A DNA stretch of 34,927 bases. Source: Candidatus Omnitrophota bacterium. GTDB taxonomy: Bacteria > Omnitrophota > JACPQZ01. The stretch is from assembly GCA_016190205.1 (NCBI GenBank), contig JACPQZ010000057.1, forward strand, positions 1-34,927, given 5' to 3'. Within the stretch, counting starts at the first letter, position 1, and each line of letters starts with the position of its first letter. The translations under genes were made by a program, and so were the position numbers. The notes beneath the pieces are model-generated. The model ran no database searches and had not been told where the DNA came from. It saw only the letters and a program-made list of their open reading frames with translations. Shown here in pieces: positions 21,751-34,577 of this stretch.

Positions 21751-21780
21751 TTGACTATACATACTATTGCATGTTACAAT
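21751..21780 (+). promoter_or_regulatory. Putative sigma70-like promoter for the giant ORF (TTGACT-N18-TACAAT)
   Basis: TTGACT 21751-21756, TACAAT 21775-21780, in a locally AT-rich patch. Confidence 0.5.
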
Positions 21781-21788
21781 ACCCGTCC

Positions 21789-21881
21789 ATGCATTCTCGC
21801 CCATCCATAAGGATTATCGCAGCGCTTACAACGGGTATTTTTCTTATTACCGCTATAGGCGTTGATCCATCATATGCACTC
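21789..21881 (+). other. Signal peptide or N-terminal TM helix of the giant ORF
   Basis: Positively charged n-region, hydrophobic IIAALTTGIFLITAIGV, then DPSYALS (possible A-x-A-like site). Confidence 0.7.
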
Positions 21882-24800
21882 TCCCTCAACCGGCAATCCC
21901 GGTTGGGGCCGCACACGATTTCCGCCACAAGTTACCTCACCCAGGAGCCTTTTCTTAAGGGCGCCGCATTCAGCCTCTATCTAGCTAAACTTCAGAAAAT
22001 TCTTGAATCAGGGGTCAAGGGACCAGGTGTTTACAGCGGGGGTTCTCTCTGGGCGCTCGGCTGGCGGGCCGTGCGTGATCTGCCGGAAGACTACCGCGGG
22101 GTAGGCGATCACGTGCGTGAAATTCGTTACGAGACGGGCGGTGAGATGACGGTTCTTCTCGACGACGGCCAATTAGAGATTCCGGCTGGGGCGACATTCG
22201 AGGAGATTGCCGAGCGCGTGCGTGCAGGCACGCAGAGGGTATCCGGCGGGCTCGTTTCTCCGGTCGAGCGGCTTGGCCCGTCTGCCGTGGATTTGCTCAA
22301 ATCTCGACTGGGGGCTTTAAACGAGGAATACGCGAGCCTTAACCCGGAGCAACGGCGTGCGGTGAGCGATGTCTTTGCCCGCGTGTCTGGCGGGGGAGAC
22401 ATGATCCAATCTCGGGTGGCGCATACCGTGTTAAGTGGCGCTGCCGTTGTGATGGAGGCCGACGTTATTCGGCCGGCCGGCGCGCCGCGCGGAGACGGTT
22501 TGCGCGAGGATGCAGCCAGGCTCGAGGTCGACGGTTGGAGCCTCGAGCAATTGCTGGACTACATGATTTCTTATCAGGTGCTGGATGAAAAACTGCTGGA
22601 AATGTTGATTATTTTAACGGATTCGGGCGGGTCTGTTCCTCGCACCGTCTGGCGCGAGGCCGTGGTTAAGTACAGGAAGGTGCTGAATCGCAGGGAGTTT
22701 AACCGGGTTTTGGTGCATCTCAAAGAGGAAGATCTGATCAAGGAAACAGGCGGCCTCTTTGTCGCAAACCTGGACGAACTGCGAGCGCAGGTCAAGTGGG
22801 ACATGGACCGGCGTCAGTTGAAAAAGATATTCCTGGAGGTCCTGGGAGGCAGGGGACTTGCGAGATGGAACTTAAATCCCGACGAGTGGAGAGGACAAAT
22901 ACAGGTTCTTTTGGGAAAGTGGGCACGGTTTTCTGTCTCCGGCGCCGTCATTGAAGAGCCGGAATCATTGACAAGCCTTAACCAGGAGCAACTGCTCGAG
23001 TTTTTATCAGACGCGCTGGCAGCCGAGCGTTATCTCATCCGTCATGAGCGGGCTATGAAATCTGCTCTTAAGCTCATGGGGGTGAGGGCCGATGCCTCCA
23101 TAGGCCAGATTGTATTTCGTTATGCCACCTCCCGGCACCTCCTCCATGTAGGACGCCGGCAGGGGGAAGACCCTTCCGCGCGCGTTCTCACGGTGGATCT
23201 GGGCAATATCTCTGCACATGCACTGCGCAATCCCCTGTATGTCCTGCACGCCCTTTCCCACAGCTTCATGAAACCCCGCACCGAAGTAGTATCTGCCCCC
23301 CCGTTTTCGATTGACGAGTTCAGACAGTATGGGTCTCCGGTCCTCCTCGAGGCAGTCGACGAGGTCATTGCGCACAAGCTCTCGGCTCAAATCGCACAGC
23401 GGCTTGATATCTCGGACAGGCAGTGGAGAGAGTACCTCACGAGCACGTTCGGATTCCATGACCGCCTGGCGGGCGGGCACGCGGTCAGATGGGCCATGCT
23501 CGCCGCGATTTACACCCAGAGCCGTGTCTTTGAAAGAGCCTCGTTCCTGGACAATTGGCTGATGGAGGCCACGGAGGCGGGAATAGATGACGATCTTGTA
23601 AATGCCTTGCGGACACTTTACAGGCAATCGGGGTTTAAGAATATCTCCGAGGCCGCGCGGCCCTGGCAGGAGATGCAAGAGACGGATCTGCTCCGGATCG
23701 CTGTACGGCATTATAAAACCGCGGCCGATATACTCGGCGTTTCTGAAAAACAGCTGAAGCCGCTTCTCACGTTCGACCGGAACTGGGAATCGGACATAAC
23801 GTTTCCGAGGGACAATGGCGAGCCCATGACGGTAAAGGGCTTCCGCGTCTGGCATCGCCGCGCCACCTGGACGGGGAGGCTCAAGTGGAAAGAATGGGTC
23901 ATCGAGCCCGCGAGCGTCTACGGGGGCGGTTTCCGGATCACTCCGAGCGTAGATTTAGAGGAATGTCAGGGTCTCTCCATGATGATGTCGAACAAGAGCG
24001 CTCTGTTGGGGCTTCCCGTGGGAGGGAGCAAGGGCGGAATCCGTGCAGATCTTAAGGAACTCTCCCTGAAGGAGCAATTCCGCATGATCCGCTCTTATGT
24101 GAATGCGCTCCGAAGGGACGAGGTGATCGGCCCGCATCCCGAGTATCCCGACAGGCACCTGGACCGGTTTGCCCCGGATCAGAACATTACTGAAGAAATG
24201 ATTCTCGTGTTTTTGGATCAGTACATCCGGCTGATGACAGAGGAGAGAAGATTAAGCCACCGCTTGTTCGAGTCGTCTCTTCAGGGCGTGCTGGAATCCG
24301 TGCGCGCACGTGAAGCACTTCTTTCGGTGCCGAATGATGAACCGGCGGAAACCCTCTTTCTGGATGCGTATCTTAAGGTACTCGGCCAGAATCCTAGACT
24401 TCCGGCGCCGGAGCTGGCTGTCATCTCGAGCAAGCCGGTCAGGGCGGGGGGGCTCGCTGTGCGTAAGTTGGCAGTCGGCTTGGGGGGCTCGGCGGTCCTG
24501 GATGAATTTTTAAGGCACTCAAGTATTCTTCGGCCCAAAAAAGGTGAGGCCTTGCGGGTGGCGATCCAGGGTTTTGGCCCAGCGGGCTATTCCATGGCGC
24601 ACTATCTGGCGCTTCCGGGCTGGAGGTACCGCTATCTTCTTCAATACCTAGGCGACATGAGCGGCTATTTTTACAAGGAGGCGGGGTTTGACCCTGAAGA
24701 CGTCGAGCGCGACATGCGGGAGCATGGCCGCAGGACCATAGGCGGTTATGGGCCGGTCGATCGCGTGATCGGCAGGGAAGAGTTTTTCAGTTCTGACGTA

Positions 24801-27800
24801 GATATCTTGATACCGGCGGCCACCGGAGGGGTGATCACGAGCGTGAACGAGGCCGATATCCGGGCGCCTGTAGTTGAAGAACTGGGCAATGGCGCGGTGA
24901 CCTATCCCGCAGCGAATGCCCTGGCCAGCCGGCCGAAGGTTGTGCTTTCGGGAGAACTGGCCAATTCGGGGGCATTCTTCGTTTCGAATATAGAGGCCGA
25001 TGCCAACGTCAAGGGCAGAACATGGGATGACGACAGGATTGGCAAACTTGTAGTCGCAGTCATGCGCGATACGACACGAAGGGTCATGGAGACCTCCAAA
25101 TCCTTCGACCCCACCATTCCCCTGTCGAACGCCGTCATGGTCTTTGCGCTCAAGCGCATGCTGGGGGGTCAAGTGGCGGAGCTCAACAACCAGGCGTCCG
25201 GAGACGGCATCGAGATGGAGGCGCTGGAGCGTGCGGATCGCACTCGACATCCCAATTGGCTCGAGAGCACTTTCTTGCCCGGCCGGTCATGGTCCCATAA
25301 AATGGATTTATCCCACGTTAAATGGGCTTACCTTCTGCCGGGGGTTATGGTTGGGGTCGTGACCCTCGCGGCCTATGTATTAGGTGTGATTGGAGTAACA
25401 GGCCTGGGTCATTCCCTTCTTGTTTCGATGCTGACATTTGCCGCCATTGATTCAAGCGGCCAATTATTCGGCCAGGACAGACGCGTCGATCTTCAGCAGG
25501 TGCTCGCAGCCATCACGGTCATCGGTCTTTATAACGGTCTTGCCATCCATTTCGTGTTTGCTTGGATGGAGCAGTTCCTGTGGCCGGTGCGGGTCCTGGT
25601 TGCTACGCTGCATGGTGCCATTTCTGGAGTGGCGTATCTGGGTCTTCTCCATACCCTTCATTATCGTATTCGAACACCTGAGCACTCTATCCGGTATGAC
25701 GAATTTAATGAAGCCGTGACTAAGAAAAAACTCATGCAAATGCTTCTGTACGTCGTCACATTGATCGATATTCCAAGACATGTCGTTGTCCAAGGCTTTT
25801 TGGAAGAGTCATCCCCGACAGTACGTGCTACTGTATCTCTTGTGACTGGTGCCCTTGTAGGCGTCACGTTGAGTTATATCACGAACAGGGTCCAATCCTC
25901 GGAAGATGGCGGAACCCATCTTTCAGGGGACGGTGTCCGCGATGCCACGATGAAAAACGCGGCGGTGAGATTGCACGAGCTCTCGACGTCGGAGAATAAG
26001 GCTGAGTTCCAGCGGTATGCCCTGGCACTCGTTCATGACGTCGTTCCATATTTTTTTGAGCAGGAGGAACAGCGCGTTTATCTCAAGCGCCTCGGCTGGC
26101 TTGCCCCGCATGACCTCCATGGACTCCGGCGCCTGTTGAGGGATCTCTCGTGGGAGTTAGGTCTGAAGCGCTTCCGGCGAAATGCGGCCATGATCAACTT
26201 AAGCCAATTGGCGCCCCAGCTCCTTGAGGAAGGCCGCATCTCCGAGGAGCAGGCGGAGGCGGTCAAAGCAGCGGTTCAAGAGAAGGAAGGAGTAATCCGA
26301 AGCACTCTCCTCGCGGGGAGGGCCGTCTGGGTCTACGGACAGGAGGTGCGGCTCGATCCGTTGACGGGACGGTTTTTCTTTGACGAGCCCTTTATGAGCG
26401 AAGGTTTCAAGAAGATCCCCCTTGTGGAGCGTGCCCCGCCCAAAATCGTGATCGGTGTGCTCGTGCACAATGGCTGGGATGACGTGAAGGCCCTGCTTCA
26501 GTCGCTCTGGCACATGGGGACGCCCAATGTCGAAGTTGTGGTTTTAGATAATGGCTCCGCCGAGAATCGCTTAAGGGAACTTGAGCGTTTTGCTGACGTA
26601 CCAGCCTACCGGTTGATGTTCATGCGCACTGAATCCAATCTGGGTTTTGACGAGGGGCATAACGCCGTTCTTGATTATGCCTTGGACGAGGCGCGCGCGG
26701 ACTACTATCTCGCTTTAAATGACGATTGCGTTGTTGGCCCCGGATTTATGAATGGGCTTCTGGCGGCATTCGAGGATCCTGAAACGCGGAAACTCATTGC
26801 GAGCGATCGGCCCATCGGGGCAGTGGGGCCGCTTGTATTTAATCTCGAAGGGGCTCAGCGCACGCCTGTGATTCAAAGCTACGGACGTCCGCATCTTCGG
26901 AAGGTTCTTTTCCAGAGGCAAAACACGGGGTTTGGGAGCAGCGATCCCAGCGCCTTCCCCAGCACCATGATAACGGACACGGTTGTGGGCCCTGCAGTGC
27001 TTTATCCCACTTCTGCCCTTAGGGCTATAGGCGGGTACGATCCCCGTTTCTTCATGTATGGCGAGGAGCCTGATATGGCGCTTCGTCTTGAGGATGCTGG
27101 ATACATCAGCGCGGTCACCCAAGGTTCCAAGATATGGCACAAAGGTTGGGGGAATTCGAGCGGCGGCGATCGTTCACGGATAATGTCCGATCTGGTGGTG
27201 CGTAATCGCTTCCTTCTGCTGCGTAAGCATGCCCAATTGCGAGACATGAAGACCCTCGTCAGCATTGCGATGCGCATCGTGTATTTTTCTTTCGGGCGCT
27301 TTTTAAGGGCGCTTGTCTATCAAGACGCCGCCTTGGCGCTCGCCCCGGTCAAGGGAGTTCTGGACGGTATGCTGGGCAGGTTTTCCACGGTCCAAGCGGG
27401 CCCCGTCGAGAGGGTCGTGCCCTTGCCGTCTGCCCGCCAACCGGCCGCCAAAATTCCAGAGGCCGTCGGGAGCAGGGTTTCCTCATCCGGAGACGGGCTT
27501 GCTTCGGGGGATGGCATTACGGATGAGAACGAATGGCGGCAAAGGATTGCTCGGGCGAGTTCGATCCATGAGCTGAACCAACTCCCCGCAGCCTTCGCTC
27601 AAGAAGGCCGGCCTCCCTTGGAGTCTAAAAGAAAATGGAGTCCTACCTGGAGTCACTGGTTTCGGACCCTTCCTTCTGAAGCGGAGAAGTTTGAACGGGC
27701 TGTGGCAAAACGGCGTGAGCAGATCGCCGCGGCGGCATATGATAGGGTGGCGAGGGCGGTGGAGGCGATGGATGACACTCCTGCCTTGGAGCTCGCATTG

Positions 27801-30800
27801 GCACTCATAAAAGCGCCAGGTGGAAACGCAGTTATTTACCTCCTGACCGACCCGCGCACTAAGGGGACAGTAGCCCCTCTGCTTCTGAAGGCTTTGCAGG
27901 TCAGCGACCATGGTGAGGCAGTGGATATCCTGCGTGATGCGGCGTTCGAGCAACAGGGGCCGTTTTACATTGAGGTTAAGAGTCTCATAGCCAACAGGAT
28001 CCGGAGGCTTGAAGACGAAGCTGCCGTTGAGGACAGGCTTGCGGAAGGCGCGAAGAATATGGGCGACTCCTGGCGCAAGGGAAGTTCGAGCGCGCCGCCC
28101 TCTACGGGCGCGGGGGATGGTATGCGGCAGCATAAGCCACGGACCATCTGGTGGCCCAAGCGGGATTTTGGTTACACCATTCACAATACGAATGTGGGAG
28201 AGCTCATGCAACAGCTGGGTTTCTCGCAATACAGCTCATTGTTGCGGTGGGCCAGCAGGAACCCCACGTCGTTTTACGACGCCATCGCGCGTCCGGACGG
28301 GCACCTGGGACTCGTGTGGGACACCCCTTATGAGAATGTTTTGAGCAAGTCGGGAGGTCCCTTTGGGGATATGAGATATCAGTGGTTTAAGGGGGGTCAG
28401 ATCAATCTCTACCGGAATGCGGTGGAAAGGCACCTCGGCCGGACCCGCGATCGCGGCAATGGGCATCATGGCAATAGTTACGACGGCGCGGATGATGATC
28501 GTGGCGATGATCTCGCCATCATCTGGCTCGGTGAAAACGGTGAGCGGAGCGAGCTCACCTATGCCGAGCTCGACGATGAGGTGGGAAACGTTGCGGCGGC
28601 TCTTCGGAAAATTGGCGTTGGGGAGGGCACGGCCGTGGGGGTTGTCATGCCTGCCCTTCCTGAAACCGTTATCGCGCAGCTCGCCCTGTGGAAGCTGGGC
28701 GCCGTGGCGGTTCCCATGTCGCCCGGGTCGGGAACAGCTCTGACGGCCCACCGCCTGCGCGAATCGGGGGCGCGCTTCGTCATCACAGTTGACGGAACGA
28801 CCCGCAAGGGAAGGGTGCAGAAGTTGGCGCACTTCGGGCGGAAAGAGGAAACGCCCGGCGAAACCGGTAAGGCAGGTTATGAGGTGGCGTTAGGAAAGGC
28901 GCTGGTTGATCAGGCGCTCGAGGAGATTCCCGGCGTCGAGCGCGTCGTGGTATTAAGAAGTCTCGACGAAGCCACGATGCCGATGGGTTCCGTCCCCATG
29001 CGGCCCGGCCGCGATCTTTGGTGGGATGAGTGGTTGGCCAAGGCCAAGGGCGAGCCAGTGCCCGATACGGTCGCAACCGATGCAGATCACCCTGCCATCT
29101 ATGCCTTTAGCTCCGGAACGACCGGGCTTCCCAAAGGACTCATTCACTCGCACGGAGGCCTCACCGTCAACGTCGCCAAGGAGCATGTCTACCACTTCGA
29201 CCTCCGGCGCGGCGATCGTTTTGCCGGGTGGGATGATATCCAGTGGATGATGGGCGATTGGAAGATCATCGGCACCCTGATGCGGGGGGCGACTCTCGTC
29301 ATGATGTACGGCGATCCGTTTGCCACGCCGGACCGGCTCTGGCAGGCTATGCAGGATGAGACCGTCACGCATCTGGGGTTAAGCCCCAAGCAGGTGCGAA
29401 AAAATATAGCAAGCGACCCTCGCCTCCTGAACATGATCAGGAAATATGACCTGTCGTCGCTTCACTTTTTTGGATCCACGGGGGGGCCCTGGGATGAGCG
29501 GACGTGGAGATTCCTCTTTGAGGAGGTGGGTCAAAGCCGCATCCCCGTCATCAATATCTCGGGAGGGACGGATTTATTTGGCGCGCTCATGGCGAACAGC
29601 CCCCTCGCACCGCTTAAACCCGGGACCTTATGGCCCGCGCTAGGGATGCATGTGGGGCTGTTTGATGATGAGGGTCACTCCACTAAGGAAGGGCATCTGG
29701 TTTGGTTCCCTCCATTTGGTCCCTCGCAGACGCACGGTATTTTGGGCGACGATACCGGTCATTCACGTTTCCGTAAAACCTACTTTTCGAAGTTTGCGGG
29801 CGTATGGAGCCATGGGGATTGGGCGAGCCGCAAGGGGAACATGTATACGATCCATGGCAGGGCAGACGGCACCTACCGCTATAACGATCAGTTCGTGAGC
29901 CCCGGAGTTGTGGAAAGCGCGGCGTTAAAGCACCCCGCCGTGGCCGAGGCTCTTAATGTCGGAGTGCCCAATCCGGAGACGGAAAGCGACATTGTAGTTT
30001 TTGCGGTGCTCAACCAAGGGTGGCGGCCTTCCCCGGAGCTTGCAGATGACATCAAAACACGGATCGTGCAGGACCTCGGGAAGACCTTCCGTGTCAGGGA
30101 TGTTCACTTTGTTATCGGCCTGCCCCAAACCCAGTCCGGCAAGGACGTGCATGATATTGTGCGCGCCGCGTATACCGGCGGGGCGATGCGCGACACGTCA
30201 AGCTTAAGCTTGGAGAGCGCAGGCTTCATAAAAGAGATTCGCAAGGCGGGACTAAACGCGCGCGGGGACGGCCTCACGGCGGGAGAAATACTCATTTACG
30301 GTGCCTGGACAGCCGCAAGCGGATTAGGCGTCTGGGTGTTTATCAAGGCGCATAGCGTTTATCAACAGCATCTCGCTCGGCGCATGAGGAGGGGTCTGGA
30401 GGATCAGTTATCCGACTTTCTCAATCAGAACATGAATGGTAAGTGGGTCGAGGATCCTAAAACCGCGCGTACCGCTCTTGACCAGTTGATCGATGGATAT
30501 GAAGATCTGCATCCGGCCGTCATGAAAGAGAGTGGCGCGGAACACGTCGTGACAGTCCTAAAGTCGATCAGGCAGCTGATGGATAAGCATGTGAGCATCT
30601 CTCACATCCTAAGAGATGCCCAAGAAGGGGTTATGAAATTCCGCAGGCAGCTCGACTATTTTAAGGAGCAGGATTTTAACGAACATGAGAAGAGACCCGA
30701 GATAAAGACAGCCGTTCTCAAAATCTGGGTGACGAAGGAAGAAAATTGGAAAGAGTTCGAGGCGTTTGTCGACCACAGCCTGACACTTTTTTCTGGGGCG

Positions 30801-33800
30801 GGAATACGCACGGATACATCAGTCTTTAGCGCCGCCAAAGAGTTTTTAAAGGGGATTCAGGCGGAGATCAAACGGATCGAAATGGACCCGGAGGTTCCTA
30901 GAGACCATTTATTCCAATTTGCTCATGAGGCGTTCAATATGGCGGATTTGGCTTTTCAGCGCGTTTTCGACTCCCAGGCGCAGGTGCTTAAGGAAGAATT
31001 TACCAGGTTTGCAGACGATCTCGCCCGGACCCGTCGGTGGGGTGGTCGTCCAACGGGGGATGGAGTAACCAGTGCGGAGCTTTTGGTGAACGGAGCCACC
31101 ACCTTGCTGCTGGGCGGGTTTTGGGTTTATTTTGCTGTTGAAGCATGGCGGTCTAACAAGGAGCAAATCTCTCAAAAGAAGTTTGATAACGAGTTCATTC
31201 GTTTCCTGGAACTAAACAGAGGGGGGGGCTGGACCCAGGCGCCTCTTGTAGCAGCAGACGCTCTTGGAAAGGCACGGACTCACTATAAAAATCGTCGTGA
31301 CCAGTCACAGCCAGCGGCCGAACGAGAACGTGTGATTTCAACACTTCAATCCATGCTGGAAATCAGCGAGCGCTATACCCGACTACAGACAGCGGTACGG
31401 GATGCCGAAGAGGGAATCCAGGCCTACCGGAGCCAACTCGATTATTTCAGGGGGAGCGGAAGCCGGCCTGCGGTCATAGACTCTTGGATTAATAATACCC
31501 GAGAAGAGTGGATGGGTTTTATTCAGCGTTCCGTTAGGTCGCTCATGGGTGCAGGTATCCCGATAGGGACGGTGGTCGCGATGGGTCTCGACGAGTTCTT
31601 GGTCGATGCGAATATTGCGATCGATCGCGAGGAAGGACGCCTGCCCCAGGTAGAGGAACAGCCGTATCAATACGTGTACGAGAGGTATGACCGGGCCATG
31701 AGGATGGTTCGCGATGCGCATTCGGTGGGCACGCAAATTCTGACGCGGGAGTTTACGGAACGTGCCGGCGAAATTATCCAAGCGCTGGGCAGTCCTTCGC
31801 AAGGCGACGGCGTCAAGGGGGAGGGCGAGTATTCTGCCGCAAGAGACAGCAGGTGGATCAATTACATTGTAATCAAGAAGATTGCCGTCTCGCATTCCAG
31901 CGCGTCGATGGCTGATTTCAACATTCTCCTTGATCTTAATGACTATGTGATCGTTCAATTTTCGGTAAGTCTCCCCGCACATGTCACCCCCAGCCAGATC
32001 TTTGATTTCATCGAGGGCTTTCTGGCTGAAAAAGAGCGTGGCGAGCCGGGCATCGCGCGTTCCATCCCGTACTTTAGGGAGAGATTGCCGGCAGAACTCA
32101 AGTCGGGATTTCATGCGCATTTCCCGTTGCGCGTCCTGGAACAGTTTCCCGGCCTTTGGGAAGCCATCCAACAGTACCCCAAGCCCGATGGAGTTACCAT
32201 CCGCTACACCGTCTCGGGAGGGCGCGGCCCGGCCAAGCATTTGAACCACGCCATGTTCCGCTTAGGTCTCCTTATGGCACTTTTGTCCATGAAGGAAGGC
32301 AAGATCACGGGGCTTGTGGTAACGGGTTCGCACAATCCGTCGAATGAAAACGGCGGCAAGGGAGTGGATGCCTTGGGCGAGATGATGCCTACTGCCTGGG
32401 AAGAGTATGCCCATGCCCTGATCAACGCGGACGATGCCGATGTGCCGGCGGTGCTTCAGACGATGATTGAGGGCGAAAGGATCTCCGTTCAGTTCGCCCG
32501 CTCCGCCCGGGTTTACCTGGGCCGGGACACCCGTCCGAGCAGCCCGCACCTGGCTGGGATTGTTCGGGAAGGCGTCGAGGCCCTGGGTGCCCATGCGGTA
32601 GATTTTGGTGAGATCACAACGCCCCAGCTTCACCATGCGGTGCGCGCCGTAAATACAGGAACGCTTGAGTCCGAGGAACATATGGAAGATGCTTACTTCT
32701 CCCAGCTCGTGCATTCATACGCCTCGGTACTCGCGGGTATCTCACGTCCCACACGGCACACCTTCCATGTAGACGCCGCATTTGGAGTGGGCGCGCCCAA
32801 ACTGGAACGTTTGAACGAGGAAATTAGTAGTGGCCAAATTCCCGGCGCCGCGTACTTTAGTATTTTTAACCGGGTGGGTGAAAGGCCGGTCAATGATCAT
32901 GCCGGCCAGGATTTTGTGGAAAAACTGCGCAAGTTGCCGCAGGGTGTTGACCCCGTGACGGGCCGGTATAAGGATTTCTTTACCATTGACGGCGACGTCG
33001 ACCGGCTGACCGGGTTTCGTGTGGGTAACGATGGAAATCCGATACTTTACCGCGGCGAGCGCATGGCGGCGCTTTTTGCGCAGTTTATCCAGGGGCAGTT
33101 GAAAGCGGCCCGCATGAATCTTTCTATCGGCATCGTCATGACACGCTACGCCAACGGCGCCGCGGAGGAGTATATTCGCAAGACCACCGGTCTCCAGCCC
33201 GTCTTCACGCGAACCGGAGTCAAAAACCTGTATCACGAAGCTAAGCGTTATGACATCGGAATTTATCTGGAGCCCAATGGCCACGGCACGATCCTTTTTA
33301 GTGACCGTGCGGTCGAAGCGCTTACGCAGGCCCTGCAAGGTGTAAAAGCGGCGCCTTCAGAACCGCAATCCGCCGAGCGGGAGCTGGCCATCACCCGCTT
33401 ATTGGGTGTCTCTCGCCTGATGAACCAGGCGATTGGTGACGCATTGCCCAACCTGCTTCTTGTCGCGGCCCTCCTGGCGCACCGGGGCTGGGACATGGAA
33501 GAGTGGGGCGCTCAATATGCGGATTTGCCCCAGGTTCAAGTTGTTGTTAGCGGCGTGCCGCGTGCCAGTGACCTCCGCACAAATGACGATGAATCACGCA
33601 TCGTTTCGCACGCCCATATCCAGGAGGATGTCGATGCCGCCGTCAAGCGGTACACGCACGGCCGCGCCTTCGCCCGCCCATCCAATACGGAATCCATCGT
33701 CCGCGTCCTGGCCGAAGCAGATACTTGGGAGCACGTGCAGTCTCTTGCCAGCGAAGTAGCCTACATCATCGAGCGGCATTTCAAGGAAAATCCTGCGAAA

Positions 33801-34577
33801 GGCGACGGCATCAGTGAGCCCGACCAAGAATTTCTTACCCAGCTTCACCCGAGGACCAATATCGTTCCCGTCGTCACCCCGCTTACGAGTGCGGGCGAAA
33901 TCGATAAAGGCGGGATTACCAGACTTGTGCAGCAGTTAGACGGAGTTTCAGAACACGATCGCCGTATTGCCCAAGAAGAAAACCGCGTGAGCGCCTTCGG
34001 CGGCGGGAAGTTTAGGGAGCTCTCGGCCCCACCCGCTACCCACCACCCACTACCCACTACTCAAACTGTTTTTGGAACAGTTCCTGCGCATTTGGGGAAT
34101 GGTTTTGCGCTGGTTGTTGACGACTCCGTCCTCTCGAGTGCGCCGAACAAGACCCAATACCAGATGCTCGTGGAACTTTTCGGGGGTGAGGGAATCTATC
34201 TATTCAGCGATTGGAAGAGGCGCTATCTTGAAGGCTCGGCTGAGCCGCAGGCAGGGTTTATTTTAAGTGCCGAGTCTAAAAAGGAGCTGGCCGGGTTTTT
34301 AAGTTACTGGGAGCAAAGTGAAATCCCCTGGGCCGAGGAATTCTCGGCAGGCGGAATGAGCCAGGGGTGGGCGGTGCCCTTCCACCGCCTGCTCACTGAT
34401 CTGGAGCTTCTCCAGGCTGCCATCAAGGCCTCGGAGGGCAATTTGCCTGACACGTGGAAGTCCTACCTTCTTCAGTCCGTTCTGGGCGACGTGGACGATA
34501 CCCCCATCAAAAGCGGGGAGCTTAAGATGATCGGGGACGGGCTCTTGGCCGTTTTGGATTTGATTATTCAAGCTTAA
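21789..34577 (+). CDS. Giant multidomain protein with N-terminal signal/TM segment and GDG-punctuated enzyme modules
   Basis: Single uninterrupted frame (track start 21771, 4268 aa; alternative Met at 21789 gives MHSRPSIRIIAALTTGIFLITAIGVDPSYAL); modules listed separately. Confidence 0.93.
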   Translation: MHSRPSIRIIAALTTGIFLITAIGVDPSYALSLNRQSRLGPHTISATSYLTQEPFLKGAAFSLYLAKLQKILESGVKGPGVYSGGSLWALGWRAVRDLPEDYRGVGDHVREIRYETGGEMTVLLDDGQLEIPAGATFEEIAERVRAGTQRVSGGLVSPVERLGPSAVDLLKSRLGALNEEYASLNPEQRRAVSDVFARVSGGGDMIQSRVAHTVLSGAAVVMEADVIRPAGAPRGDGLREDAARLEVDGWSLEQLLDYMISYQVLDEKLLEMLIILTDSGGSVPRTVWREAVVKYRKVLNRREFNRVLVHLKEEDLIKETGGLFVANLDELRAQVKWDMDRRQLKKIFLEVLGGRGLARWNLNPDEWRGQIQVLLGKWARFSVSGAVIEEPESLTSLNQEQLLEFLSDALAAERYLIRHERAMKSALKLMGVRADASIGQIVFRYATSRHLLHVGRRQGEDPSARVLTVDLGNISAHALRNPLYVLHALSHSFMKPRTEVVSAPPFSIDEFRQYGSPVLLEAVDEVIAHKLSAQIAQRLDISDRQWREYLTSTFGFHDRLAGGHAVRWAMLAAIYTQSRVFERASFLDNWLMEATEAGIDDDLVNALRTLYRQSGFKNISEAARPWQEMQETDLLRIAVRHYKTAADILGVSEKQLKPLLTFDRNWESDITFPRDNGEPMTVKGFRVWHRRATWTGRLKWKEWVIEPASVYGGGFRITPSVDLEECQGLSMMMSNKSALLGLPVGGSKGGIRADLKELSLKEQFRMIRSYVNALRRDEVIGPHPEYPDRHLDRFAPDQNITEEMILVFLDQYIRLMTEERRLSHRLFESSLQGVLESVRAREALLSVPNDEPAETLFLDAYLKVLGQNPRLPAPELAVISSKPVRAGGLAVRKLAVGLGGSAVLDEFLRHSSILRPKKGEALRVAIQGFGPAGYSMAHYLALPGWRYRYLLQYLGDMSGYFYKEAGFDPEDVERDMREHGRRTIGGYGPVDRVIGREEFFSSDVDILIPAATGGVITSVNEADIRAPVVEELGNGAVTYPAANALASRPKVVLSGELANSGAFFVSNIEADANVKGRTWDDDRIGKLVVAVMRDTTRRVMETSKSFDPTIPLSNAVMVFALKRMLGGQVAELNNQASGDGIEMEALERADRTRHPNWLESTFLPGRSWSHKMDLSHVKWAYLLPGVMVGVVTLAAYVLGVIGVTGLGHSLLVSMLTFAAIDSSGQLFGQDRRVDLQQVLAAITVIGLYNGLAIHFVFAWMEQFLWPVRVLVATLHGAISGVAYLGLLHTLHYRIRTPEHSIRYDEFNEAVTKKKLMQMLLYVVTLIDIPRHVVVQGFLEESSPTVRATVSLVTGALVGVTLSYITNRVQSSEDGGTHLSGDGVRDATMKNAAVRLHELSTSENKAEFQRYALALVHDVVPYFFEQEEQRVYLKRLGWLAPHDLHGLRRLLRDLSWELGLKRFRRNAAMINLSQLAPQLLEEGRISEEQAEAVKAAVQEKEGVIRSTLLAGRAVWVYGQEVRLDPLTGRFFFDEPFMSEGFKKIPLVERAPPKIVIGVLVHNGWDDVKALLQSLWHMGTPNVEVVVLDNGSAENRLRELERFADVPAYRLMFMRTESNLGFDEGHNAVLDYALDEARADYYLALNDDCVVGPGFMNGLLAAFEDPETRKLIASDRPIGAVGPLVFNLEGAQRTPVIQSYGRPHLRKVLFQRQNTGFGSSDPSAFPSTMITDTVVGPAVLYPTSALRAIGGYDPRFFMYGEEPDMALRLEDAGYISAVTQGSKIWHKGWGNSSGGDRSRIMSDLVVRNRFLLLRKHAQLRDMKTLVSIAMRIVYFSFGRFLRALVYQDAALALAPVKGVLDGMLGRFSTVQAGPVERVVPLPSARQPAAKIPEAVGSRVSSSGDGLASGDGITDENEWRQRIARASSIHELNQLPAAFAQEGRPPLESKRKWSPTWSHWFRTLPSEAEKFERAVAKRREQIAAAAYDRVARAVEAMDDTPALELALALIKAPGGNAVIYLLTDPRTKGTVAPLLLKALQVSDHGEAVDILRDAAFEQQGPFYIEVKSLIANRIRRLEDEAAVEDRLAEGAKNMGDSWRKGSSSAPPSTGAGDGMRQHKPRTIWWPKRDFGYTIHNTNVGELMQQLGFSQYSSLLRWASRNPTSFYDAIARPDGHLGLVWDTPYENVLSKSGGPFGDMRYQWFKGGQINLYRNAVERHLGRTRDRGNGHHGNSYDGADDDRGDDLAIIWLGENGERSELTYAELDDEVGNVAAALRKIGVGEGTAVGVVMPALPETVIAQLALWKLGAVAVPMSPGSGTALTAHRLRESGARFVITVDGTTRKGRVQKLAHFGRKEETPGETGKAGYEVALGKALVDQALEEIPGVERVVVLRSLDEATMPMGSVPMRPGRDLWWDEWLAKAKGEPVPDTVATDADHPAIYAFSSGTTGLPKGLIHSHGGLTVNVAKEHVYHFDLRRGDRFAGWDDIQWMMGDWKIIGTLMRGATLVMMYGDPFATPDRLWQAMQDETVTHLGLSPKQVRKNIASDPRLLNMIRKYDLSSLHFFGSTGGPWDERTWRFLFEEVGQSRIPVINISGGTDLFGALMANSPLAPLKPGTLWPALGMHVGLFDDEGHSTKEGHLVWFPPFGPSQTHGILGDDTGHSRFRKTYFSKFAGVWSHGDWASRKGNMYTIHGRADGTYRYNDQFVSPGVVESAALKHPAVAEALNVGVPNPETESDIVVFAVLNQGWRPSPELADDIKTRIVQDLGKTFRVRDVHFVIGLPQTQSGKDVHDIVRAAYTGGAMRDTSSLSLESAGFIKEIRKAGLNARGDGLTAGEILIYGAWTAASGLGVWVFIKAHSVYQQHLARRMRRGLEDQLSDFLNQNMNGKWVEDPKTARTALDQLIDGYEDLHPAVMKESGAEHVVTVLKSIRQLMDKHVSISHILRDAQEGVMKFRRQLDYFKEQDFNEHEKRPEIKTAVLKIWVTKEENWKEFEAFVDHSLTLFSGAGIRTDTSVFSAAKEFLKGIQAEIKRIEMDPEVPRDHLFQFAHEAFNMADLAFQRVFDSQAQVLKEEFTRFADDLARTRRWGGRPTGDGVTSAELLVNGATTLLLGGFWVYFAVEAWRSNKEQISQKKFDNEFIRFLELNRGGGWTQAPLVAADALGKARTHYKNRRDQSQPAAERERVISTLQSMLEISERYTRLQTAVRDAEEGIQAYRSQLDYFRGSGSRPAVIDSWINNTREEWMGFIQRSVRSLMGAGIPIGTVVAMGLDEFLVDANIAIDREEGRLPQVEEQPYQYVYERYDRAMRMVRDAHSVGTQILTREFTERAGEIIQALGSPSQGDGVKGEGEYSAARDSRWINYIVIKKIAVSHSSASMADFNILLDLNDYVIVQFSVSLPAHVTPSQIFDFIEGFLAEKERGEPGIARSIPYFRERLPAELKSGFHAHFPLRVLEQFPGLWEAIQQYPKPDGVTIRYTVSGGRGPAKHLNHAMFRLGLLMALLSMKEGKITGLVVTGSHNPSNENGGKGVDALGEMMPTAWEEYAHALINADDADVPAVLQTMIEGERISVQFARSARVYLGRDTRPSSPHLAGIVREGVEALGAHAVDFGEITTPQLHHAVRAVNTGTLESEEHMEDAYFSQLVHSYASVLAGISRPTRHTFHVDAAFGVGAPKLERLNEEISSGQIPGAAYFSIFNRVGERPVNDHAGQDFVEKLRKLPQGVDPVTGRYKDFFTIDGDVDRLTGFRVGNDGNPILYRGERMAALFAQFIQGQLKAARMNLSIGIVMTRYANGAAEEYIRKTTGLQPVFTRTGVKNLYHEAKRYDIGIYLEPNGHGTILFSDRAVEALTQALQGVKAAPSEPQSAERELAITRLLGVSRLMNQAIGDALPNLLLVAALLAHRGWDMEEWGAQYADLPQVQVVVSGVPRASDLRTNDDESRIVSHAHIQEDVDAAVKRYTHGRAFARPSNTESIVRVLAEADTWEHVQSLASEVAYIIERHFKENPAKGDGISEPDQEFLTQLHPRTNIVPVVTPLTSAGEIDKGGITRLVQQLDGVSEHDRRIAQEENRVSAFGGGKFRELSAPPATHHPLPTTQTVFGTVPAHLGNGFALVVDDSVLSSAPNKTQYQMLVELFGGEGIYLFSDWKRRYLEGSAEPQAGFILSAESKKELAGFLSYWEQSEIPWAEEFSAGGMSQGWAVPFHRLLTDLELLQAAIKASEGNLPDTWKSYLLQSVLGDVDDTPIKSGELKMIGDGLLAVLDLIIQA
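23800..25175 (+). other. Glu/Leu/Phe/Val dehydrogenase-like module in the giant ORF
   Basis: NKSALLGLPVGGSKGGIRADLKELSLKEQFRMIRSY (GDH-type GGxKGG), FAPDQNITEEM, Rossmann VAIQGFGPAGYSMAHYL, DVDILIPAATGGVIT, SGELANSGAFFVSNIE. Confidence 0.85.
25311..25905 (+). other. Multi-pass TM module in the giant ORF
   Basis: Several hydrophobic stretches: WAYLLPGVMVGVVTLAAYVLGVIGV, HSLLVSMLTFAAI, VLAAITVIGLYNGLAIHFVFAW, VLVATLHGAISGVAYLGLL, VSLVTGALVGVTLSYI. Confidence 0.75.
26439..27330 (+). other. GT2-family glycosyltransferase module in the giant ORF
   Basis: KIVIGVLVHNGWDDVKALLQSL, VEVVVLDNGSAENRL, ESNLGFDEGHN, YYLALNDDCVV, GGYDPRFFMYGEEPDMALRLEDAGY. Confidence 0.9.
28137..30200 (+). other. Acyl/acetyl-CoA synthetase-like (AMP-binding) module in the giant ORF
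   Basis: WFKGGQINLYRNAVERHL, AIYAFSSGTTGLPKGLIHSHGG, GGTDLFG, YRYNDQFVSPGVVESAALKHPAVAEALNVGVPN, C-terminal catalytic-Lys motif LPQTQSGKD. Confidence 0.9.
30264..31055 (+). other. TM-plus-helical module, duplicate 1, in the giant ORF
   Basis: GDGLTAGEILIYGAWTAASGLGVWVFIKAHS...RDAQEGVMKFRRQLDYFKEQ...SLTLFSGAGIRTDTSV...QVLKEEFTRFADDL. Confidence 0.85.
31056..31802 (+). other. TM-plus-helical module, duplicate 2, in the giant ORF
   Basis: GDGVTSAELLVNGATTLLLGGFWVYFAVEAW...RDAEEGIQAYRSQLDYFRGS...SVRSLMGAGIPIGTVV...QILTREFTERAGEI, colinear with duplicate 1. Confidence 0.85.
32170..33785 (+). other. Phosphoacetylglucosamine mutase (AGM1/PGM3-type) module in the giant ORF
   Basis: KHLNHAMFRLGLLMALLS, VVTGSHNPSNENGGKGVDALGEMMPTAWEEYAHALINAD, YLGRDTRPSSPHLAGIVREGVEALGAHAVDFGEITTPQLHHAVRAVNTG, DGDVDRL, MTRYANGAAEEYIRKTTGLQPVFTRTGVKNLYHEAKRYDIGIYLEPNGHGTILFS, RAFARPSNTESIVRVLAEAD. 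Confidence 0.92.
33838..33953 (+). other. Short DapA/NAL (class I aldolase)-like N-terminal remnant in the giant ORF
   Basis: NIVPVVTPLTSAGEIDKGGITRLVQQLDG, then the similarity stops. Confidence 0.55.
34031..34058 (+). repeat. Four tandem degenerate heptamers, consensus CCCACTA, inside the giant ORF
   Basis: cccgcta|cccacca|cccacta|cccacta, encoding PATHHPLPTT. Confidence 0.85.

Follow-up and report, generated by a model that had tools for sequence, protein, structure and literature searches.

A eukaryotic-type mutase module in a bacterial giant ORF

Does a bacterial giant ORF carry a phosphoacetylglucosamine mutase of the eukaryotic AGM1/PGM3 type, and how would such an enzyme have come to be there? 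The window (the whole stretch of DNA analysed, 34,927 nucleotides) contains a long frame in which AGM1-like peptides had been claimed at 32170-33785. These peptides are in frame, and homology to AGM1 runs from 32157 to 33770 (residues 53-590 of P0002), close to the claimed range. The module is indeed embedded in a bacterial giant ORF, the parts of which are as follows.

21771-34577, + strand: giant ORF of 4268 aa (12.8 kb), a multi-enzyme chain in one uninterrupted frame
21771-21878, + strand: signal-peptide-like N-terminus, with hydrophobic core IIAALTTGIFLIT then PSYA^LSL (hydropathy only)
23808-25157, + strand: glutamate dehydrogenase (GDH)-like module, ELFV N and C domains (Pfam; structure relatives)
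25341-25649, + strand: three predicted hydrophobic segments, a membrane-like module between two GDG linkers (hydropathy)
26454-26786, + strand: glycosyltransferase family 2 module (domain search)
28230-30239, + strand: acetyl/acetoacetyl-CoA synthetase-like module (domain search; nearest solved relatives bacterial Acs)
30264-31055, + strand: module of no recognised family, copy A of a duplicated domain (similarity to copy B)
31056-31802, + strand: module of no recognised family, copy B (similarity to copy A)
32157-33770, + strand: AGM1/PGM3-type phosphoacetylglucosamine mutase module (Pfam, phmmer, tree, motif positions)

The module matches A. fumigatus AGM1 (4bju) far beyond chance (phmmer E 1.6e-95, 324 bits, 538-residue alignment), and C. 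albicans AGM1 (2dka) nearly as well (E 1.4e-90). It is 38.4% identical to the A. fumigatus protein over 518 aligned residues and 35.9% identical to that of C. albicans, the two fungal sequences being 50.1% identical to each other; 143 of the 260 residues that they have in common are retained. In Pfam, AMG1_III (E 1.1e-42), PGM_PMM_I (1e-12), PGM_PMM_IV (5.8e-9) and AMG1_II (0.0033) are recognised. Bacterial and archaeal GlmMs belong to the same phosphohexomutase superfamily, but their similarity to the module is very weak (at most 49 bits among PDB sequences, E 3.5e-12 for the top GlmM) and their domain 1 is unpermuted. The GlmM models TIGR01455 and TIGR03990 score 84.9 and 87.2 bits, far below their cut-offs of 447.55 and 439. 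PGM3 is set apart from all of its paralogs by a circular permutation within domain 1 (PMC5570346), and domain 1 of the module is permuted in the same way, with SHNP at 32328 preceding RDTR at 32523.

The AGM1 layout that had been proposed in preference to that of GlmM is thus borne out by profile searches and domain order as well as by phylogeny (see below), and an identity as GlmM or ManB is ruled out by the scores, the model cut-offs and the tree. An AF2 model of the module alone, made without an alignment, has a pLDDT of 37; the module aligns over 538 residues with solved structures. Judged by its sequence, 32157-33770 is a full-length AGM1/PGM3-type phosphohexomutase with nearly all catalytic motifs.

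A chain of modules joined by a repeated peptide

What the original prediction overlooked is the setting of the AGM1 module: it forms a single cassette in a series of enzymes joined by linkers, and series of this kind occur in several genomes of the phylum. The giant ORF, for which an alternative start is possible at the ATG at 21789, carries separable functional units in one frame, as a polyprotein does; its 12.8 kb is below the 20 kb that is the length criterion for Omnitrophota giant ORFs. Besides the parts listed above, it includes other modules of no recognised family. Signal-like N-termini similar to that of the window ORF are seen by hydropathy in six other giant ORFs from three genomes. 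Relatives of the N-terminal 243 aa, sought in the phylum, were found only in this genome (G000). The GDH-like module has Thermotoga GDH as its nearest solved relatives, and nothing supports a eukaryotic origin for the chain as a whole, as its GDH and Acs modules are nearest to prokaryotic enzymes among solved structures. Copies A and B lie in tandem and are 27% identical over 253 aa (E 5e-28), each opening with a GDG linker. The linkers of the window ORF are listed here.

22491-22502, + strand: GDGL linker
25200-25211, + strand: GDGI linker
25926-25937, + strand: GDGV linker
27489-27518, + strand: double linker GDGLASGDGI
28113-28124, + strand: GDGM linker
30264-30275, + strand: GDGL linker
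31056-31067, + strand: GDGV linker
31803-31814, + strand: GDGV linker opening the AGM1 cassette
33801-33812, + strand: GDGI linker closing the AGM1 cassette
34533-34544, + strand: GDGL linker close to the C-terminus

GDG[VLIM] occurs 11 times in this ORF, against a mean of 0.45 and a maximum of 4 in shuffled sequences. None of the 11 falls within the four recognised enzyme modules (P 0.0016); the motif sits between modules, and is thus a repeated motif at the joins, as is seen in polyproteins. In the giant ORFs of G000 together it occurs 45 times in 17,404 aa, against 0 in the 6,437 aa of the window's ordinary proteins. This joint enrichment is inflated, as a DNA pattern encoding SGDG and a following hydrophobic residue was used to collect the other giant ORFs; the bias has little effect on the window ORF, or on the 35 of the 45 linkers that have no Ser in front. 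A genome-wide search for the linker motif gave 23 matches, against 5 in a reversed control. Synonymous codons vary among the linkers while the peptide is constant, which points to conservation of the peptide and not of the DNA, and makes a DNA-level repeat unlikely as their origin.

Further giant ORFs of G000, found through motif and family matches only and so an incomplete list, carry modules for GAPDH, triosephosphate isomerase (TIM), phosphoglycerate mutase, PanB, CsrA, response regulators and PtsI-like and GlnD-like proteins. One of them, of 4657 aa with 8 GDG linkers (G000:C36:47330-61300; L035:331-14301), has PanB, PtsI/PEP-utilising, GlnD-like, uridine-kinase-like and glucan-phosphorylase-like parts. 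Another (L033:1-6006, G000:C31) has a GAPDH module and a TIM that may be circularly permuted, since its NWK strand appears, by eye, to come after the GGSV region. An ORF of 1151 aa (L030:12776-16228, G000:C34) has 8 GDG linkers, CsrA matches, a response regulator and a NAGPA domain.

Different linkers in different genomes

Giant ORFs with metabolic modules are also found in three other genomes of the phylum, with other repeated linkers: GLEE in G112, DQAM[VI] in G114 and RSE[TVA]R in G061. GLEE is the top 4-mer in the giant ORFs of G112 (10 observed, 0.48 expected), and GLEE-type sites number 230 in that genome against 102 in the control. The giant ORFs of G114 and G061 were picked by their GAPDH content, with no motif used; those of G114 carry two GAPDHs, PGK, enolase and an aldolase-like module, and those of G061 GAPDH, enolase, phosphoglycerate mutase and TIM. 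In whole-genome counts, in which some linker matches fall outside long frames, DQAM[VI] is found 15 times in G114, twice in G061 and not in G000 or G112, and RSExR 49 times in G061 (control 2), 6 in G000 (3), 11 in G112 (8) and 0 in G114 (3). The RSExR linkers of G061 (L077) have the Ser codon TCG in 10 of 10 copies, mostly with GAA.

Linkers end just before modules in these genomes as well: at 1187 and 1639 in G114, with the PGK domain from 1201 and enolase from 1657, and at 1109 in G061, with the GAPDH domain from 1117. Homologous PGI modules (L094 and L114, 49.6% identity over 246 aa) are preceded at the same place by DQAMVA in G114 and by RSEAR in G061; L114 also carries a phosphoglucomutase-like fragment. 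Because homologous PGI modules follow different linkers, the linker appears to belong to the genome rather than to the module, and we take the PGI join as the strongest sign of this.

The genome-typical short peptide, GDG[VLIM] in G000, may mark a processing or spacer site, in which case the chain would be a polyprotein. No processing protease for the linkers was identified. Alternatively, the linkers may be neutral scars, spacers that spread with their modules during fusion, in a chain that works intact with no processing. Their position at module joins is as this would predict, as is their likeness within one genome, which duplicated joins would share. However, the free variation of synonymous codons around a constant peptide in G000 argues against such scars, as do the different peptides at the homologous PGI join. 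The codon argument is weaker in G061, where the constant TCG makes DNA-level copying harder to exclude than in G000. Neutral scars are a serious contender, to which we give about one chance in three.

Retention of the active site

The motifs of the AGM1 module were located in frame as follows.

32205-32225, + strand: YTVSGGR motif (in-frame motif position)
32322-32339, + strand: phosphoserine loop TGSHNP (motif position)
32523-32534, + strand: RDTR motif (motif position)
32988-33005, + strand: metal loop DGDVDR (motif position)
33270-33287, + strand: sugar loop EPNGHG, whose Asn is that of PGM3-type enzymes (motif position; PMC5570346)
33675-33692, + strand: phosphate loop RPSNTE, RASGTE in fungi (motif position)

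The phosphoserine loop SHNP and the metal loop DGDxDR are retained, as had been predicted. The serine and three metal aspartates of the active site are known from the AfAGM1 structure (PMC3763426); all are kept in the module, together with the Glu and Asn of the sugar loop and the Arg, Ser and Thr of the phosphate loop. With the fungal enzymes (4bju, 2dka) it shares full-length homology, the permuted domain 1 and all four active-site loops. It differs from them in lying in a bacterial genome, inside a chain of 4268 aa whose N-terminus is signal-like, and in several residues: positions constant in the fungi are altered from GTAGFR to TVSGGR, SGTE to SNTE and AANG to AAFG, and the sugar loop is EPNGHG rather than EANGHG. 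RPSNTE is also present in the GlmM of G000 itself, so the change to SNTE alone need not abolish activity. As the catalytic residues are retained despite the altered loops, mutase activity of the module is likely.

The changed positions could also mean that the module is a pseudoenzyme, in which the fold survives for a structural or binding role within a giant surface protein. An attachment role has been proposed for Omnitrophota giant ORFs (PMC10066038), and the relative in G112 (described below) is clearly degenerate. Against this, the residues of the phosphoserine, metal, sugar and phosphate loops are kept over an untruncated 538-residue alignment, and the GAPDH modules of G000, G114 and G061 keep, by eye, the catalytic Cys and His. 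We regard a pseudoenzyme as improbable, at roughly one chance in four, and an active mutase as the better reading.

Origin of the module

PGM3/AGM1 has been reported as restricted to eukaryotes (PMC5570346). A scan of 85,488 prokaryote species for the sugar-loop and N-terminal motifs, which misses copies without both, gave as its sole match a 310-bp contig of Brenneria sp. 4F2, an AGM1 piece that is probably eukaryotic contamination. In the phylum, a full permuted AGM1 was found in one of 386 sampled genomes, G000, and AGM1-like matches in two of 286, counting the diverged G112. No relatives of the module were found in viral contigs and plasmid collections.

In a tree of domains II-IV, in which eukaryotic AGM1 is represented by two fungal sequences only, the module groups with the fungal AGM1s (support 95/96), the G112 module comes next (100/99) and all GlmMs fall outside. 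The branch of the G000 module is long (0.84), and it appears as sister to both fungi rather than nested. The horizontal acquisition that had been proposed stands in part: the near-uniqueness of AGM1 among sampled prokaryotes, together with its description as eukaryote-restricted (PMC5570346), favours transfer, whereas the sister position to two fungi does not place the module within the eukaryotes. A eukaryotic source is the simpler reading and is likely, although proof would take more than two eukaryotic sequences.

The phosphohexomutase module of G112 (L039:13539-19868) lies between two GLEE linkers. Its domain I resembles that of GlmM and lacks the permutation, its domains II-III are AGM1-like, and SHNP and DGDxDR are lost; it is a singleton among 293 genomes of its class. 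The unpermuted domain I and the lost active site rule it out as an AGM1 ortholog. Its AGM1-like domains II-III nevertheless leave some room for a bacterial relative of AGM1: in an old bacterial AGM1-like lineage, eukaryotic AGM1 and the G000 module would share a bacterial ancestor in or near the phylum. The position of the G112 module as sister to AGM1, and of the long G000 branch outside the two fungi, are consistent with such a lineage. However, the G112 module, a long-branched singleton without its active site, may be a chimera or misplaced, and AGM1 is found in no other sampled genome of the phylum. An old bacterial lineage is unlikely, with perhaps one chance in five, and transfer from a eukaryote is preferred. 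Eukaryotic DNA contaminating the assembly, real elsewhere as the Brenneria contig probably shows, is hardly credible here, as the module lies inside a 12.8-kb open frame without stops, is flanked by the genome's own GDG linkers and has a GC3 like the rest (0.661, against 0.642 in the ORF part upstream), which together also rule out a binning artefact within the contig.

A possible role for the chain

The explanation that we favour overall, and hold to be probable by a modest measure, is that an AGM1-type mutase, probably from a eukaryotic gene, joined a giant multi-enzyme chain as one of its cassettes, and that this chain would be an exported or membrane-targeted polyprotein. The module would most likely interconvert GlcNAc-6-phosphate and GlcNAc-1-phosphate, by way of the phosphoserine of SHNP, Mg2+ held by DGDVDR, the GlcNAc-selecting EPNGHG and the phosphate loop RPSNTE. 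The chain would be synthesised as a single polypeptide, and its N-terminal signal-like segment, predicted from hydropathy only, may target it to the membrane or to export. Against export, enzymes that depend on ATP, CoA or NAD would be unexpected outside the cytoplasm.

A separate, ordinary archaeal-type GlmM is encoded in the same genome (at G000:C13). The AGM1 module is therefore additional, and its use as a stand-in for a missing GlmM is ruled out. In G000 and G114, GAPDH likewise has ordinary genes in addition to the copies within giant ORFs. The chain would duplicate central metabolic activities for which there are ordinary cytoplasmic genes, and the retention of housekeeping GlmM and GAPDH suggests a separate purpose for it, which might lie beyond the cytoplasm or in contacts with other cells. 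Such a purpose would be in keeping with the dependence on hosts that has been proposed for Omnitrophota (PMC10066038). More broadly, the phylum may make exported glycolysis and sugar-nucleotide polyproteins cut at a genome-specific peptide, to which one lineage added a eukaryotic AGM1 cassette; this wider version is tentative, and we think it somewhat more likely to be wrong than right.

Omnitrophota giant ORFs have been described as having few annotated domains and as often adhesin-like, with a 39,678-aa protein in V. archaeovorus (PMC10066038). The ORFs here are also very long and, judging by the giant ORFs and the gene content of the genomes, probably from the same phylum, but differ in being chains of metabolic enzymes that can be recognised, linked by peptides specific to the genome. 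Viral and other polyproteins similarly have several functional units per frame and short repeated motifs at the joins, whereas the chains here are bacterial, are composed of metabolic enzymes and have a linker, a putative cleavage site, that varies by genome. No account of linker-joined metabolic chains was found in the open-licence literature.

AGM1 has been treated as a eukaryotic hallmark (PMC5570346), and an intact, permuted bacterial copy bears on its origin, as well as on gene flow from hosts or prey. Viewing giant ORFs as core-metabolic chains with genome-specific linkers makes their roles testable.
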